Translations under genes and position numbers: made by a program
The notes under the pieces: model-generated
What the model was told of the DNA's origin: nothing
What the model saw: only the letters and a program-made list of their open reading frames with translations
Database searches by the model: none
DNA from: an uncultured Spirochaetales bacterium
Lineage (GTDB): Bacteria > Spirochaetota > Spirochaetia > Sphaerochaetales > Sphaerochaetaceae
Assembly (NCBI GenBank): GCA_902797395.1
Contig: CADBSO010000097.1
Span: 1 to 64,000, forward strand
Direction: 5' to 3'
Length of the DNA: 64,000 nucleotides
Shown here: piece after piece, positions 8,720-63,955 of the stretch
Numbering within the stretch: the first letter of the stretch is position 1
Layout: each line of letters opens with the position of its first letter

Positions 8720-8867
8720 TTTTGAATTGCGGCGTAAATTTGCTGCTTTTTCTCAAAAATGCATCACGCGGCGTACCAACGTGCGTGGCATTTGTCGGTT
8801 TCTTGAAGAATGCTCTAGTTCAAAATAGCTTTCGTATTCTTTTGAGATGATTTTTGAAAAAACCTTG
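8720..8867. repeat. Family A palindromic repeat, copy A4
   Basis: The right half (about 8800-8867) is clearly related to the right arms at 56.1 and 59.1-59.2 kb: TTGAAGAATGC, CTAGTTCAAAATAG, then TTTTTGAAAAAACC at the tip. The centre holds an inverted pair AAATGC..CACG / CGTG..GGCATTT. The left arm is degraded. The right tip supplies the -35 box of the following gene. Confidence 0.6.
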
Positions 8868-8882
8868 ATAAAACACTATAAT
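8854..8882 (+). promoter_or_regulatory. Promoter whose -35 box lies in repeat A4
   Basis: TTGAAA, 17-nt spacer, TATAAT: near-consensus. The TTGAAA is part of the terminal TTTTTGAAAAAACC of the repeat. The -10 ends 10 nt before the ATG at 8893 and there is no Shine-Dalgarno, so the mRNA would be nearly leaderless. Confidence 0.65.
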
Positions 8883-8892
8883 TGAAAATGAT

Positions 8893-9510
8893 ATGGGAAA
8901 GATTGGTCGCAAAGGATTTTTTGTTTCTGTCGCGTTTGCGTTCTGTTTGGCTGTCATGTCTTTGGTTTCCTGCTCAACTTATGTTTCCGGCAGATGGATT
9001 ACTACTAGGATACCGGCTAAATACAACAACCCTGAATTTAATTATCTCAGAGCCAAGACAATAGCGTTGGAATCTTGCGGACTGGTTAATTTCACGCCAT
9101 TCCTCATAGGTGTTGAAAGGCAGGCAACCGGTTATGTATTTATCTTTTATGCCAAGGAGATTGACACGGTTTCGCGCATATTCGTTAGCGGTGACAAAGG
9201 CGAAGGAAAGGTGTTGCTGTTTGAGGATGAGGTCGTATCCGGCAAAAAATATGATTTCCTGAAGAACACTGATATGATCATTGATGCTGAAAGGGCTTTG
9301 AACAAGGTCATTAAGGGCGATGCGAAATTGAAGTCTCCTACAGAGGCAATGCCCGCATATACCTATAGCTGCAAATTCACAAGGACCAAGGATGATGATG
9401 CTTTTAGAGTTATATTCGGCACTGATAAGATGGAATACGATTTTGCGATAAAAGCCAATACGGGGGATAATAAGATTCTGAAGAGGGAGATAAAACCCCG
9501 CGACAAGTAG
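8893..9510 (+). CDS. Predicted lipoprotein of unknown function
   Basis: 205 aa. Lipoprotein signal with basic residues, hydrophobic core and lipobox LVSC (acylated Cys27). The remainder is a soluble domain rich in beta-strand-like stretches (FTPFLIGVERQATGYVFIFY) that I do not recognise. The start was chosen as the ATG at 8893; an ATG at 8888 is in another frame. It is followed 11 nt later by holA and is probably the first gene of a lipoprotein-holA-lptC transcript driven by the repeat-borne promoter. Confidence 0.75.
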   Translation: MGKIGRKGFFVSVAFAFCLAVMSLVSCSTYVSGRWITTRIPAKYNNPEFNYLRAKTIALESCGLVNFTPFLIGVERQATGYVFIFYAKEIDTVSRIFVSGDKGEGKVLLFEDEVVSGKKYDFLKNTDMIIDAERALNKVIKGDAKLKSPTEAMPAYTYSCKFTRTKDDDAFRVIFGTDKMEYDFAIKANTGDNKILKREIKPRDK

Positions 9511-9521
9511 TTTGGCATTCT

Positions 9522-10490
9522 GTGAAAAACGTTTATATCGTTCTTGGAGAGGAGAAGAAGGATGCGCAGGAGAAGATTAATCAGTTGCGCTCCGCATGTT
9601 TGGTGGAAAAGGCCGATGTGAGATTCGCTTTCGATTCTTATGATGTTGCCAGAACCATATCCGATATCGAAACGCCTTCGCTCTTTGGTGATTCTTTTTT
9701 TATCGTATTGGAGTGCGCGGAGATGCTTTCCGACAAGGATGCCGCTCTGCTGGCCAAGAGCATTCAATCGAATGATTTCAATGGCTTGATTGTTTTCAGG
9801 AGCGAACAGAACAGGATATCATCCCGCATTGAAAACGTGACGCCTGCGGCCAACAAATTCATTTTCTACTTGATGTTTGAAAGCCAGAAGCCTCAATTTG
9901 TGCGTTCTGTATTCAGAAAACTCGGATATGTCATTGATGCTGATGCCGTGGAGGAGCTTCTCGGTTTGGTGGATAACGATAAGGCTGCGATAGAAATGTC
10001 ATGCAAGCGTGTCGTTGACCTGATGTCTCTGCTCCGCAATGGAAGAAACAGCATTTCTCAAGCGGATGTCTCGGATTTTCTTGATTTTGATAAGGAAGAG
10101 GATTCCATAGAACTGTTTTCCCATGTGGCGAACCGAAGGCTCAGACCAGCATTGATGTCTGCTGAAAAAGCGTATAGAACTCAAAAAGGATTGTCCTCTG
10201 TGGTTCTTTCTCTTCTCGGATATGTTCGTAGGGCATCGTCTTATATTCAGAATATGAAAGAGCGTGGGAGCGATCCTTGGAAAGTGCATTTGATTTCAGG
10301 GGATATCACGGTTAGGTATCCTGCTGAAAAGGATTTTCTGAAGGATTTTGCCGCAAACTATAGTTTTGAAGCGTCCTTGCGAGCTGAATACCTGTTGCTG
10401 AAGTCCGAGAGCATCACTAGAAGCGGTCTGGATCCGGATATGCAGATGATTCAATTCGGAAGGGATTTGTCGAGGATTGTCAGATTATGA
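9522..10490 (+). CDS. holA: DNA polymerase III subunit delta
   Basis: 322 aa, about the family length. The delta subunit opens the sliding clamp within the clamp-loader complex in the cytoplasm. The N-terminal part shows the P-loop-less AAA+ fold typical of HolA (YIVLGEEKKDAQEKI, then a TPSLFGDSFFIVLECAEML strand pattern), followed by helical domains II and III. The start is GTG (VKNVY). Its stop overlaps the start of the next gene by 4 nt. The call rests on overall pattern and length, since this family has no catalytic residues. Confidence 0.8.
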   Translation: MKNVYIVLGEEKKDAQEKINQLRSACLVEKADVRFAFDSYDVARTISDIETPSLFGDSFFIVLECAEMLSDKDAALLAKSIQSNDFNGLIVFRSEQNRISSRIENVTPAANKFIFYLMFESQKPQFVRSVFRKLGYVIDADAVEELLGLVDNDKAAIEMSCKRVVDLMSLLRNGRNSISQADVSDFLDFDKEEDSIELFSHVANRRLRPALMSAEKAYRTQKGLSSVVLSLLGYVRRASSYIQNMKERGSDPWKVHLISGDITVRYPAEKDFLKDFAANYSFEASLRAEYLLLKSESITRSGLDPDMQMIQFGRDLSRIVRL

Positions 10491-11296
10491 GGTTTTTTGG
10501 AAAACCGCGGTTGCTTGCGCTTTTGGTTGCGCTTTCTTGCTTTTTCGTTTGCTTTCTGATTTGCTCGTGTGATGGAGGCGCTTCTTCTGATTCGGAAGAG
10601 GAACCCGATATAAGGCTTAATTCCACCCATTGCGTGATTTCGGAATCCGATCAGGAGCCGATTGTGATAGATGCCGAGGTTTTGGAGCTTTATTCCGAAA
10701 CGGATACGGTTGTTATGAGAAATGTAATATTCCGTCAAAACAAGAAGGATAGCGACAGGGTTGGAATTGCAGGAACGGCAGGTTATCTGAATTTGGATTC
10801 GAAGAATCAGGACGTTCATCTGGCTGATGGGGTAGAGCTTTTCATATATCCTGATGACGACGATGATGATGGCGACAACGCTTCTAAGCCTGCAGTTGAG
10901 GTTTCCGAGTCTGGTGTTGATAGCATTCTTGCGGATTCGCAACCGGACAATCAGGAGATGGATGATATAGGTTTGTCAGGTGATGCTGATGGCAACGCGG
11001 CCGGAAATTCTATTGCGGATGCGCCTGCGAATGAAAATCCGGGCGAAGACGCGAATGCGAGCATGAACGGGGCATCGGATAAAAACGCAAGCAATGCGAA
11101 CGAGGAGAATCCGCCGCCGATGGCGAACAGGATTCAAGCTGATGAGATTGTTTGGGGCAAGTATTCCAAGATGCTTGAGAGTCCGAAAAACGTTTCATTG
11201 GAGTGGGAAGGCACTGTTATAAGAGGAACCGGCTTCAAGGGCAACCTCAATACCGGCGAATTTTCTTTTGAAAGCGTTGAGGAAGGGCGATTGTGA
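10487..11296 (+). CDS. lptC: LptC-like lipid/LPS-export periplasmic protein with acidic insert
   Basis: 269 aa. The N-terminal hydrophobic segment ends in a possible lipobox (ICSC, Cys28). Two LptC-like stretches flank an unusual insert: the first half contains the beta-jellyroll start (EVLELYSETDTVVMRNVIF), and the end has NRIQADEIVWGKYSKMLE and GTGFKGNLNTGEFSFE, typical of LptC/LptA-type proteins (known role: handing lipid from the inner-membrane LptBFG complex to LptA). Between them, about residues 123-210 are low complexity and very acidic (runs of Asp, then Asn/Ala/Asp). The ATG overlaps holA by 4 nt. In a spirochaete the cargo need not be LPS. Confidence 0.65.
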   Translation: MRFFGKPRLLALLVALSCFFVCFLICSCDGGASSDSEEEPDIRLNSTHCVISESDQEPIVIDAEVLELYSETDTVVMRNVIFRQNKKDSDRVGIAGTAGYLNLDSKNQDVHLADGVELFIYPDDDDDDGDNASKPAVEVSESGVDSILADSQPDNQEMDDIGLSGDADGNAAGNSIADAPANENPGEDANASMNGASDKNASNANEENPPPMANRIQADEIVWGKYSKMLESPKNVSLEWEGTVIRGTGFKGNLNTGEFSFESVEEGRL

Positions 11297-54377: not shown

Positions 54378-55844
54378 TCAGGCTTTATCTGACTCCGCTT
54401 CAGCCTTGCTGTCTTCGGTTTTGCTGTCTTCTGCTTTGGCCTTGCTGGATTCCTTTTTGGACTTTGCCGGGCTTTTCTTGCTCTCGGACTTGCCTTCGGA
54501 TTCGGATTCCGTTTTCTCATCCTCAAGGTATTTTCCGGAGATGTAATCCTCGTAGGTTATCTCCTTCTTGCCTTTCTTGAGGTTGTTGTTCTCGATGAGA
54601 TAGTCAATCGTAGCGGAGAAATCCATTTGATCCCTTATGGAATTCTCGATGCGCTTTTTCATTTCCTCGTCAGTGTCTTCGCTTATTTGCTTCTCAAGCA
54701 TCGCCTTGACTTTCTCGTCATCCGCCTTGATCGATTCCGCTTTCTCGACGGCATCGATTATGAGCCTGATTTTGATTGATTTCTCAACATCCGCTCTCCA
54801 TGGGGATGTGAAACTTGCCTTGGACTGTCCGATTTTGGTGAGGAACTTCTCGAAATCCTTGGAGGACATGTTGTATTGGCCTGCGGCTCTTCTGAATCCC
54901 AATTCAGTTTCGTATGCTATCATGGATTCCGGAATCGCTATGTTCGTGCTTTCAAGTATCTTGTCGCAGACGGCCGTGAGCTTTGTGTCCTTCATCCTTT
55001 CGTCGAGATCATCGGAGATCTGTTTTTTGATTCCTGCTTTGAGATCGGCGACGGTTTTATATTCGCTCTTTATGTCTTGCGCGAACTCATCGTTCACATC
55101 GGGAAGCTCCTTGACCTTTATTGTTTTGATGGCGACTTTTATTTTGATGTCGTCATCTCCGCTTTTTTTGACGAATTCCTTTTCATCGCCTTCCTTCAGT
55201 CCGATCACATCATCATCGAATTGGTAGATGTTCTTCTTTTCTCCTACGGTGAATGTGAAATCGCTGATCTTCCTGCCGGTTCCTTCTTCGCCTTCCTTTC
55301 CGATGACCTCGTAGTCGAGCGTAACCAGATCTCCATTTGCGATTTCCGCGCCATCGCCCTTGGTTTTCACTATAGAGTTCTGGTTCCTGTATCTCTCTAT
55401 TTCGCCGGCGACCATCTCATCTGAAACGACGACATTCGGAATCTCCACATCCAATCCCTTGTATTTTTCAAGCTTGATTTCCGGTGTTATATCGTATCTG
55501 ATTTTGAAGCTGATATCCTGTTCTTTTTTGAATGGAAGCAGCTTGTCATTATCCACGATTTCGGGTGTGGAATAGGGGAGGGCCCTCAACGATTCGTCAA
55601 CATTTTCGAACAATGACGATATGCTGTTGTTCATTGCCTCGAAGCATGAATCCCTGAGCACTTCCTCACCTATTTTGGCTTCGAGGACATTCATGGGAGC
55701 CTTGCCCTTTCTGAAACCGGGCAAAGTGATCTGCTTCTGATATTTCGCCAATGTCGCGTCATAGACTTTTTTGATGTCTTCCCATGTTGTAAGGAGTTCC
55801 GCTTCGGCTCTGTTCTCGCTAATCTTAGTTGCTTTGTTTTCCAT
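54378..55844 (-). CDS. tig: Trigger factor, with extended acidic/Lys-Ser tail
   Basis: 488 aa. Ribosome-associated chaperone and prolyl isomerase. The N-terminal ribosome-binding signature appears as GFRKGKAPMNVLEAK (usual GFRxGKxP), the PPIase domain runs about 150-240 (DLVTLDYEVIGKEGEEGTGR), and the C-terminal helical domain ends near 445. A tail of about 40 residues rich in Ser, Lys, Glu and Asp (KSESKKSPAKSKKESSKAKA) follows, which ordinary trigger factors lack. Ribosome-binding site AAGGATAGG. The promoter uses the left tip of repeat A1 as its -35. Order tig-clpP-clpX is the common one. Confidence 0.95.
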   Translation of the reverse strand: MENKATKISENRAEAELLTTWEDIKKVYDATLAKYQKQITLPGFRKGKAPMNVLEAKIGEEVLRDSCFEAMNNSISSLFENVDESLRALPYSTPEIVDNDKLLPFKKEQDISFKIRYDITPEIKLEKYKGLDVEIPNVVVSDEMVAGEIERYRNQNSIVKTKGDGAEIANGDLVTLDYEVIGKEGEEGTGRKISDFTFTVGEKKNIYQFDDDVIGLKEGDEKEFVKKSGDDDIKIKVAIKTIKVKELPDVNDEFAQDIKSEYKTVADLKAGIKKQISDDLDERMKDTKLTAVCDKILESTNIAIPESMIAYETELGFRRAAGQYNMSSKDFEKFLTKIGQSKASFTSPWRADVEKSIKIRLIIDAVEKAESIKADDEKVKAMLEKQISEDTDEEMKKRIENSIRDQMDFSATIDYLIENNNLKKGKKEITYEDYISGKYLEDEKTESESEGKSESKKSPAKSKKESSKAKAEDSKTEDSKAEAESDKA

Positions 55845-55966
55845 ATCCTATCCTTATTGGGCTGCTTCCGATCGGAACAGCCTTTGGTTTGAGAGCGCTT
55901 TTGAAACCGGCTGCGGCAATGCGCGACGCGGTTTCATGATATGTCGCATCCCGTAGTATTCTATAT

Positions 55967-55994
55967 ATTATAAATATATTCGAGGTTTTTTCAA
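55967..55994 (-). promoter_or_regulatory. Promoter of tig, -35 inside repeat A1
   Basis: Minus strand: TTGAAA (complement of 55989-55994), 16-nt spacer, TATAAT (complement of 55967-55972). TTGAAA belongs to the terminal GAGTTTTGAAAAAACCTC of the repeat read outward. Transcript start near 55960, leader about 115 nt. Confidence 0.65.
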
Positions 55995-56150
55995 AACTCT
56001 TCCTTTCATGCTGTTCGCTCTTTTGAACTAGGACGCAAATCCGATGGATTCTCCTTGAAAACCGCAAAATGCATGCGGTATTTCAGTATTTGCGGTTTTC
56101 TTGAAAATGCCCTGGTTTAAAATAGGCTTCGCATCATTTTGAAATGGGTT
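55982..56150. repeat. Family A palindromic repeat, copy A1
   Basis: Left tip GAGGTTTTTTCAAAACTC, then CATGCTGTTCGCTCTTTTGA; right arm CCTGGTTTAAAATAGGCTTC then GCATCATTTTGAAATGGGTT, partial complements of each other. The centre contains AAAACCGCAAA/TTTGCGGTTTT. The right tip (TTTTGAAAAAACC) is missing and is replaced by repeat C1. The gene gap 55845-56548 consists of this element, C1, a unique stretch (56201-56370) and B6. Confidence 0.75.
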
Positions 56151-56200
56151 GGCTATGTCCGAATATGTTTATTCTGCCATATCCAGTCGCCGGATATGCG
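56151..56200. repeat. Family C 50-bp repeat, copy C1
   Basis: Starts GGCTATGTCCGAATA and ends with the hairpin CATATCC/GGATATG then CG. It matches 63906-63955 at 47 of 50 positions. It is directly joined to the right arm of A1. Confidence 0.8.
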
Positions 56201-57670: not shown

Positions 57671-57839
57671 GAGGTTTGCTTAAATTTCTTTCTTTATGCT
57701 GCTTGCTTTTTCGAATCAGGCATAAACTTGCGGACTTACCTCAAAAACGCGTGGATGCGAATAGCGCTCGCGTTTTTCAGAGAGTATCCTGATTCGGAAT
57801 GGTCATCGCACTATTTTGAAACTGATTATGAAAAACCTT
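57671..57839. repeat. Family A palindromic repeat, copy A3 (diverged)
   Basis: Left GAGGTTTGCTTAAATTTC then ATGCTGCTTGCTTTTTCGA; right CCTGATTCGGAATGG then CATCGCACTATTTTGAAAC and the tip ATGAAAAACCTTG. The centre has an AAAACGCG..CGCGTTTT pair. It fills the rest of the 350-bp gap before asnA; the tip no longer holds a good -35. Confidence 0.55.
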
Positions 57840-58987: not shown

Positions 58988-59207
58988 GAGGCTTTTTCAA
59001 AACTCCTTCCTTCACGATGCTCGCTCTTTTGGACCAGAGCTTCATTTTTTCTCTTCTCAAGAAAAAATGCCAATGGATTCTTCGAGAAATGTTTTTTCTC
59101 GAGAAGAGAAAAAACACTAATACATACAGTATTCGCGATTTTTTCGAAGAATGCCCTGGTTCAAAATAGACTTCGCATCATTTTGAAATGAGTTTTGAAA
59201 AAACCTC
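58988..59207. repeat. Family A palindromic repeat, copy A2 (full length)
   Basis: 220 bp, both tips intact: GAGGCTTTTTCAAAACTC at the left and GAGTTTTGAAAAAACCTC at the right match as inverted repeats at 17 of 18 positions. The second arm pair is GATGCTCGCTCTTTTGGACC on the left and GGTTCAAAATAGACTTCGCA on the right. The centre has a 14-bp stem TTTTTTCTCTTCTC / GAGAAGAGAAAAAA. It lies between asnA and the flavoprotein gene. The remaining bases (59208-59279) contain a GGCGC..GCGCC hairpin. Confidence 0.8.
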
Positions 59208-59279
59208 TGTAAAAAATGGCGCTTTTGAACAACAGGGTTTCAGAGGCGCCAAAAAGGTGGTTTTCAGGGGGATAGCGAT

Positions 59280-63885: not shown

Positions 63886-63905
63886 GATGTTTTTTCAAAA
63901 CTCAT
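63886..63905. repeat. Family A tip, copy A5 (isolated left end)
   Basis: GATGTTTTTTCAAAACTCAT matches the left tip of family A (GAGGTTTTTTCAAAACTC). The rest of the element is absent; repeat C2 follows at once. Confidence 0.6.
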
Positions 63906-63955
63906 GGCTATGTCCGAATACATTTATTCTGCCATATCCAATCGCCGGATATGCG
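63906..63955. repeat. Family C 50-bp repeat, copy C2
   Basis: 47 of 50 positions identical to 56151-56200. Contains the hairpin CATATCC/GGATATG. Joined directly to a family A tip, as in copy C1. Confidence 0.8.

Follow-up and report, generated by a model that had tools for sequence, protein, structure and literature searches.

The tips of a species-specific MITE in the genome of an uncultured Spirochaetales bacterium carry host-type -35 boxes, and we consider it probable that some of these boxes have been completed by a flanking -10 box into hybrid promoters. Two such sites lie in the window, the 64,000-nt stretch of contig CADBSO010000097.1 analysed here, ahead of tig and of a lipoprotein-holA-lptC unit. 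In the mechanism that we favour, a MITE of 170-220 bp carries the inverted repeat GAGGTTTTTTCAAAACTC at both ends, so that each tip reads TTTTGAAAAAACC outward, matching the common host -35 region TTTTGAAAAAAC, and each insertion puts an outward host-type -35 box at both edges. A TATAAT present or arising in the flank 15-18 nt beyond TTGAAA would then create a hybrid sigma-70-type promoter, from which transcription may proceed. The family, its tips and target duplications, the -10 boxes with their spacing, the downstream genes and the likeness to the host -35 are read directly from the DNA.

A MITE family with inverted ends

Genome-wide, the 13-mer tip was found 116 times in the 2.01-Mb draft (59 on the plus and 57 on the minus strand), compared with 0 for the reversed control. 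Exact TTTTGAAAAAACC tips in the window lie at 8852-8864(+), 55984-55996(-) and 59193-59205(+), with a one-mismatch tip at 58990-59002(-); overall, 8 window matches with at most one mismatch were recovered versus 0.18 expected. Using fetched stretches covering 110 of the 116 tips, a profile search identified about 80 distinct elements dispersed on many contigs and measuring 170-220 bp, of which 48 are full length. When 21 full copies were aligned, the core measured ~170 nt and was bounded by an 18-bp inverted repeat (GAGGTTTTTTCAAAACTC...GAGTTTTGAAAAAACCTC); a hairpin insert is optional. Identical flanks of 4-7 nt, mostly 4, were present at 18 of the 43 elements with both ends readable (shuffled mean, 1.2), and the full copies are all too short for a transposase of their own. 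By its size and inverted ends, multiple copies, target duplications and lack of its own transposase, the family is a non-autonomous MITE, in agreement with an earlier note on this DNA, which had described a mobile-type repeat.

Four elements are present in the window (Table 1). Among the copies that the earlier note had labelled A1 to A4, A2 and A3 proved to be the two ends of one element; that neither has a -10 box was confirmed. A decayed element had been missed from that list. Elsewhere in the genome, two tips pointing in the same direction lie 34 nt apart at L047 (1458-1505) and L053 (1730-1776), and the L047 arrangement suggests that one MITE was inserted into an end of a second.

Table 1 Features of the window discussed in the text.
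Feature	Coordinates (strand)	Description	Evidence
MITE copy A4	8720..8865 (+)	Decayed, without left end; model positions 40-173	nhmmer 55 bits, E 1e-15
A4 -35 TTGAAA	8854..8859 (+)	In A4 right tip	
A4 -10 TATAAT	8877..8882 (+)	Outside element, spacer 17	Perfect match
Lipoprotein-signal ORF	8893..9510 (+)	First gene of unit; no Pfam family	Signal read from sequence
holA (DNA polymerase III delta)	9522..10490 (+)		PF06144 above cut-off; TIGR01128 74.9 bits, cut-off 80
lptC	10487..11296 (+)		PF06835; TIGR04409
tig (trigger factor)	54378..55844 (-)		TIGR00115 270 bits; Pfam Trigger_N/C
A1 -10 TATAAT	55967..55972 (-)	Outside element, spacer 16	Perfect match
A1 left terminal inverted repeat	55982..55999 (-)	Outward GAGTTTTGAAAAAACCTC; -35 TTGAAA 55994-55989	
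MITE copy A1	55982..56150 (+)	Model positions 1-161	nhmmer 132 bits, profile of 21 full copies
Decayed MITE	57671..57837 (+)	Mutated tips	nhmmer 75 bits
Full-length MITE (220 bp)	58988..59207 (+)	Tips are A2 and A3; no -10 at either	nhmmer 162 bits

A second repeat, (ATG)GCTATGTCCGAA..., is found next to many tips, and its translation reads like the beginning of a protein (MAMSESLTD... or MAMSEYIYSAIS...). This repeat was seen in the window at 56150-56200 and 63888-63955, and at L013, L024, L039, L046, L052, L057 and L061. In A1, the tig-facing left end is intact and this second repeat, here starting GGCTATGTCCGAA, stands in place of the right tip.

Candidate promoters ahead of tig and lipoprotein-holA-lptC

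The earlier note had read the tips as outward -35-like boxes, and at A1 and A4 TTGAAA indeed lies inside TTTTGAAAAAACC. Both sites have the layout of a fusion promoter, with the -35 inside the terminal repeat and the -10 outside: TTGAAA-16-TATAAT at A1 (55994..55967(-)), ahead of tig, and TTGAAA-17-TATAAT at A4 (8854..8882(+)), ahead of the lipoprotein-holA-lptC unit, each as first described. They are the top promoter-like sites of their regions, with 11 of 12 consensus positions each.

From the A1 candidate promoter, transcription would start at about 55960, giving tig, which begins at 55844, a predicted leader of ~116 nt. This predicted leader contains an inverted repeat, GAAACCG...CGGTTTC (55903-55935). 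The A4 candidate would start nearly leaderless transcripts at about 8889-8890, only 3-4 nt before the ORF start at 8893, a shortness that counts against this site. In the fetched DNA, TATAAT sites that combine a -35-like box with an ATG ORF downstream include 11 in which the ATG follows TATAAT by 6-10 nt (8893, L024, L072, L086, L112, L114, L115, L119, L126, L131 and window 16599), with none thereafter until 18 nt; given this distinct cluster, A4 is not odd for its host. The clustering also points to leaderless transcription as a frequent feature of this genome. We infer that the predicted hybrid sites are probably active as promoters, and the units downstream may, as the earlier note had proposed, depend on them.

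The -35 of A4 might instead come from a native TTTTGAAAAAACCTT promoter that the element came to adjoin. The A4 tip reads GAT...CCTT, not GAG...CCTC, as do several promoters with the motif and no repeat body, and separate TTTTGAAAAAACCTT promoters at L053 and L054 are preceded, at 14-19 nt, by a full element. However, the right end of A4 is continuous with its tip (subterminal similarity p 0.0025) and the 18-nt terminal repeat of A1 is complete, CCTC included, and we regard such an origin as very unlikely.

A recurrent hairpin ending GAAGCGCC(C) was observed directly 5' of several native promoters. Its sites are L041, L048, L059, L082 and ~59218-59250 in the window. The hairpin end is similar to TAAGGGCACTTCTA, the terminal repeat of an IS5-type insertion sequence on contig C126 (L136, 1256-2498).

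Perfect -10 boxes outside element ends

We analysed the flanks of 124 distinct element ends, counting TATAAT spacing from TTGAAA and shuffling each flank column, a null that retains the AT-rich first 10 nt. Perfect TATAAT boxes at spacing 15-18 were found at 5 ends (4%) versus 0.54 expected, compared with 2 versus 1.9 at spacings 8-14. Only three of the five cases go beyond A1 and A4, the two that had prompted the test; leaving these two out gave 3 versus 0.46 (P = 0.012), and 2 versus 0.35 (P = 0.042) at the stricter 16-18 spacing of the earlier note. A co-directional ATG ORF lies at most 160 nt downstream of each of the five ends with perfect boxes, versus 48 of the 119 others (P = 0.013). 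These data support a small set of candidate hybrid promoters at element ends.

At the same 124 ends, -10 matches of 5/6 showed no excess (10 versus 7.2 expected), and we rejected the strong form of the proposal, a general -10 enrichment outside tips. At element ends, the excess over shuffled sequence for which the earlier note had proposed a test is confined to perfect boxes. Its suggestion that the repeat distributes half-promoters holds in that an intact element always has a -35 box facing outward at both ends, but a perfect -10 is found at just the five ends counted above.

The element may simply prefer AT-rich intergenic targets, in which case each TATAAT would be accidental and tig and the holA unit would use other promoters. 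The first 10 nt beyond element ends are 71-78% AT, which by itself yields more -10-like matches; the lack of a 5/6 excess points the same way, and tig has a second, weaker candidate promoter, TAGAAT-16-TATCAT, 119 nt upstream. Yet the perfect boxes exceed a position-matched null and have genes downstream in all cases, and A1 and A4 outrank every other candidate in their regions. We judge an accidental neighbourhood rather unlikely.

Tip motifs without a repeat body

The strongest -10 association was found at exact motif copies lacking a detectable repeat body: 11 of these 25 copies have a -10 (≥5/6) at 16-18, versus 0.39 expected (P = 6e-13). Outside the repeat, TTTTGAAAA(A)AC is frequent among the genome's -35 sequences, and in the TTGAAA class of host promoters TTGAAAAAAC is the most frequent reading. 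In TTGAAA...TATAAT promoters without the full motif (n = 25), the TTGAAA box is mostly followed by A A A and next by C/A, and the preceding letters of host promoters of this form are often TT. The tip thus matches the host's ordinary -35 sequence TTTTGAAAAAAC. Since TTTTGAAAA(A)AC is common outside the repeat and the body-less copies hold most of the -10 signal, the link between motif and promoters appears to be largely a host property matched by the tip.

These body-less TTTTGAAAAAACC promoters could also be the ends of old copies whose bodies have eroded and whose -35 boxes were kept by selection; on this reading, a substantial fraction of the strong promoters in the genome would derive from the repeat, and A4 would represent an intermediate. 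Consistent with such a history, a -10 occurs at 13 of 35 body-less or weak-body tips versus 4 of 74 good-body tips (P = 6e-5), and the CC-extended TTGAAAAAACC with TATAAT was found 10 times here and 0 times in 60 relatives, in which the 13-mer itself is near chance level (it is absent from two same-genus genomes). L040 has both a -10 and a weak trace of the right end (p 0.011), and A1 and A4 have each lost one tip while keeping the one on the promoter side.

However, the 11 body-less tips that have a -10 show no significant similarity to the element's subterminal sequence (p 0.19-0.86), whereas the 9 body-less tips with such similarity (p < 0.05) have no -10. Several of the body-less promoters carry CCTT, not the element's CCTC, and the host -35 is independently near the motif. 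For body-less sites we therefore favour a native motif close to the host -35 over eroded tips. It is correspondingly unlikely that many body-less TTTTGAAAAAACCT -35 regions are eroded, selected tips and that the MITE rewrote part of the promoter repertoire, supplying about one-tenth of the best-matching TTGA...TATAAT promoters in the genome after divergence from the same-genus relatives.

Distribution and search for an autonomous partner

A scan of GTDB genomes, from which the window's own genome was possibly excluded, gave no match to a 28-nt element end. Neither of the two same-genus genomes has the element at tig, where other candidate promoters lie 40-60 nt upstream of the gene; any dependence of tig on the element would thus be species-specific. 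The closest named match to Tig, from a Treponema MAG, shares only 33% identity. Tig orthologues in same-genus genomes are only 41-44% identical, making promoter alignment uninformative; the ORF directly upstream of holA in these genomes is not the lipoprotein gene.

A PF01609 search of the draft genome identified a single transposase, of IS5 type (L136, contig C126), whose ends (TAAGGGCACTTCTA) differ from the MITE ends; no partner transposase with MITE ends was found in this search. Tip pairs spaced by 1-2 kb were also screened as possible autonomous copies, and two candidates were rejected. The pair of element ends at L039, 1.8 kb apart, encloses an AAA_14/DUF4143 ATPase gene (188-1642) and shows no target duplication; the ORF enclosed at L013 has no family.

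Discussion

Fusion promoters made from an outward -35 in the terminal repeat of an insertion sequence and a -10 in the flank are well documented, for example for IS2, IS256, IS257 and ISAba125, with insertion often into AT-rich DNA (PMC9330008). The MITE described here shares this layout; unlike insertion sequences, it is non-autonomous and multicopy and has a box at both ends, whereas an insertion sequence usually has the box in a single end, where it is used by the transposase promoter of a circle intermediate.

Correia elements (CREE) of Neisseria are MITEs of ~70-160 bp present in 100-250 copies, and strain FA1090 has 18 potential Black promoters (PMC2649163); the elements carry a partial -10 inside the element beside the -35 and mainly duplicate a TA target (PMC2649163, PMC9330008). 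As in a Black promoter, an end-borne -35 would be completed by flanking sequence at a minority of MITE copies. In contrast to CREE, which supply part of the -10, the -10 here lies wholly outside. With a different terminal sequence (GAGTTTTGAAAAAACCTC ends), no internal -10 and duplications mostly of 4 bp, the present elements are not CREE. Other prokaryotic MITEs with sigma-70-like promoter sequence include MITEAba12, BrickBuilt, QMITE1 and SonMITE_1 (PMC10969869), which our family resembles by description, as a non-autonomous repeat with such a sequence. The family is new and the mechanism is known, as insertion sequences and Correia elements already work in this way.

The family offers a clean natural case of a mobile repeat with host-matching -35 ends, which could rewire essential genes upon insertion. 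Together, the ~25 body-less sites and the two element-free same-genus genomes provide a way to ask whether tips outlive the repeat as promoters.
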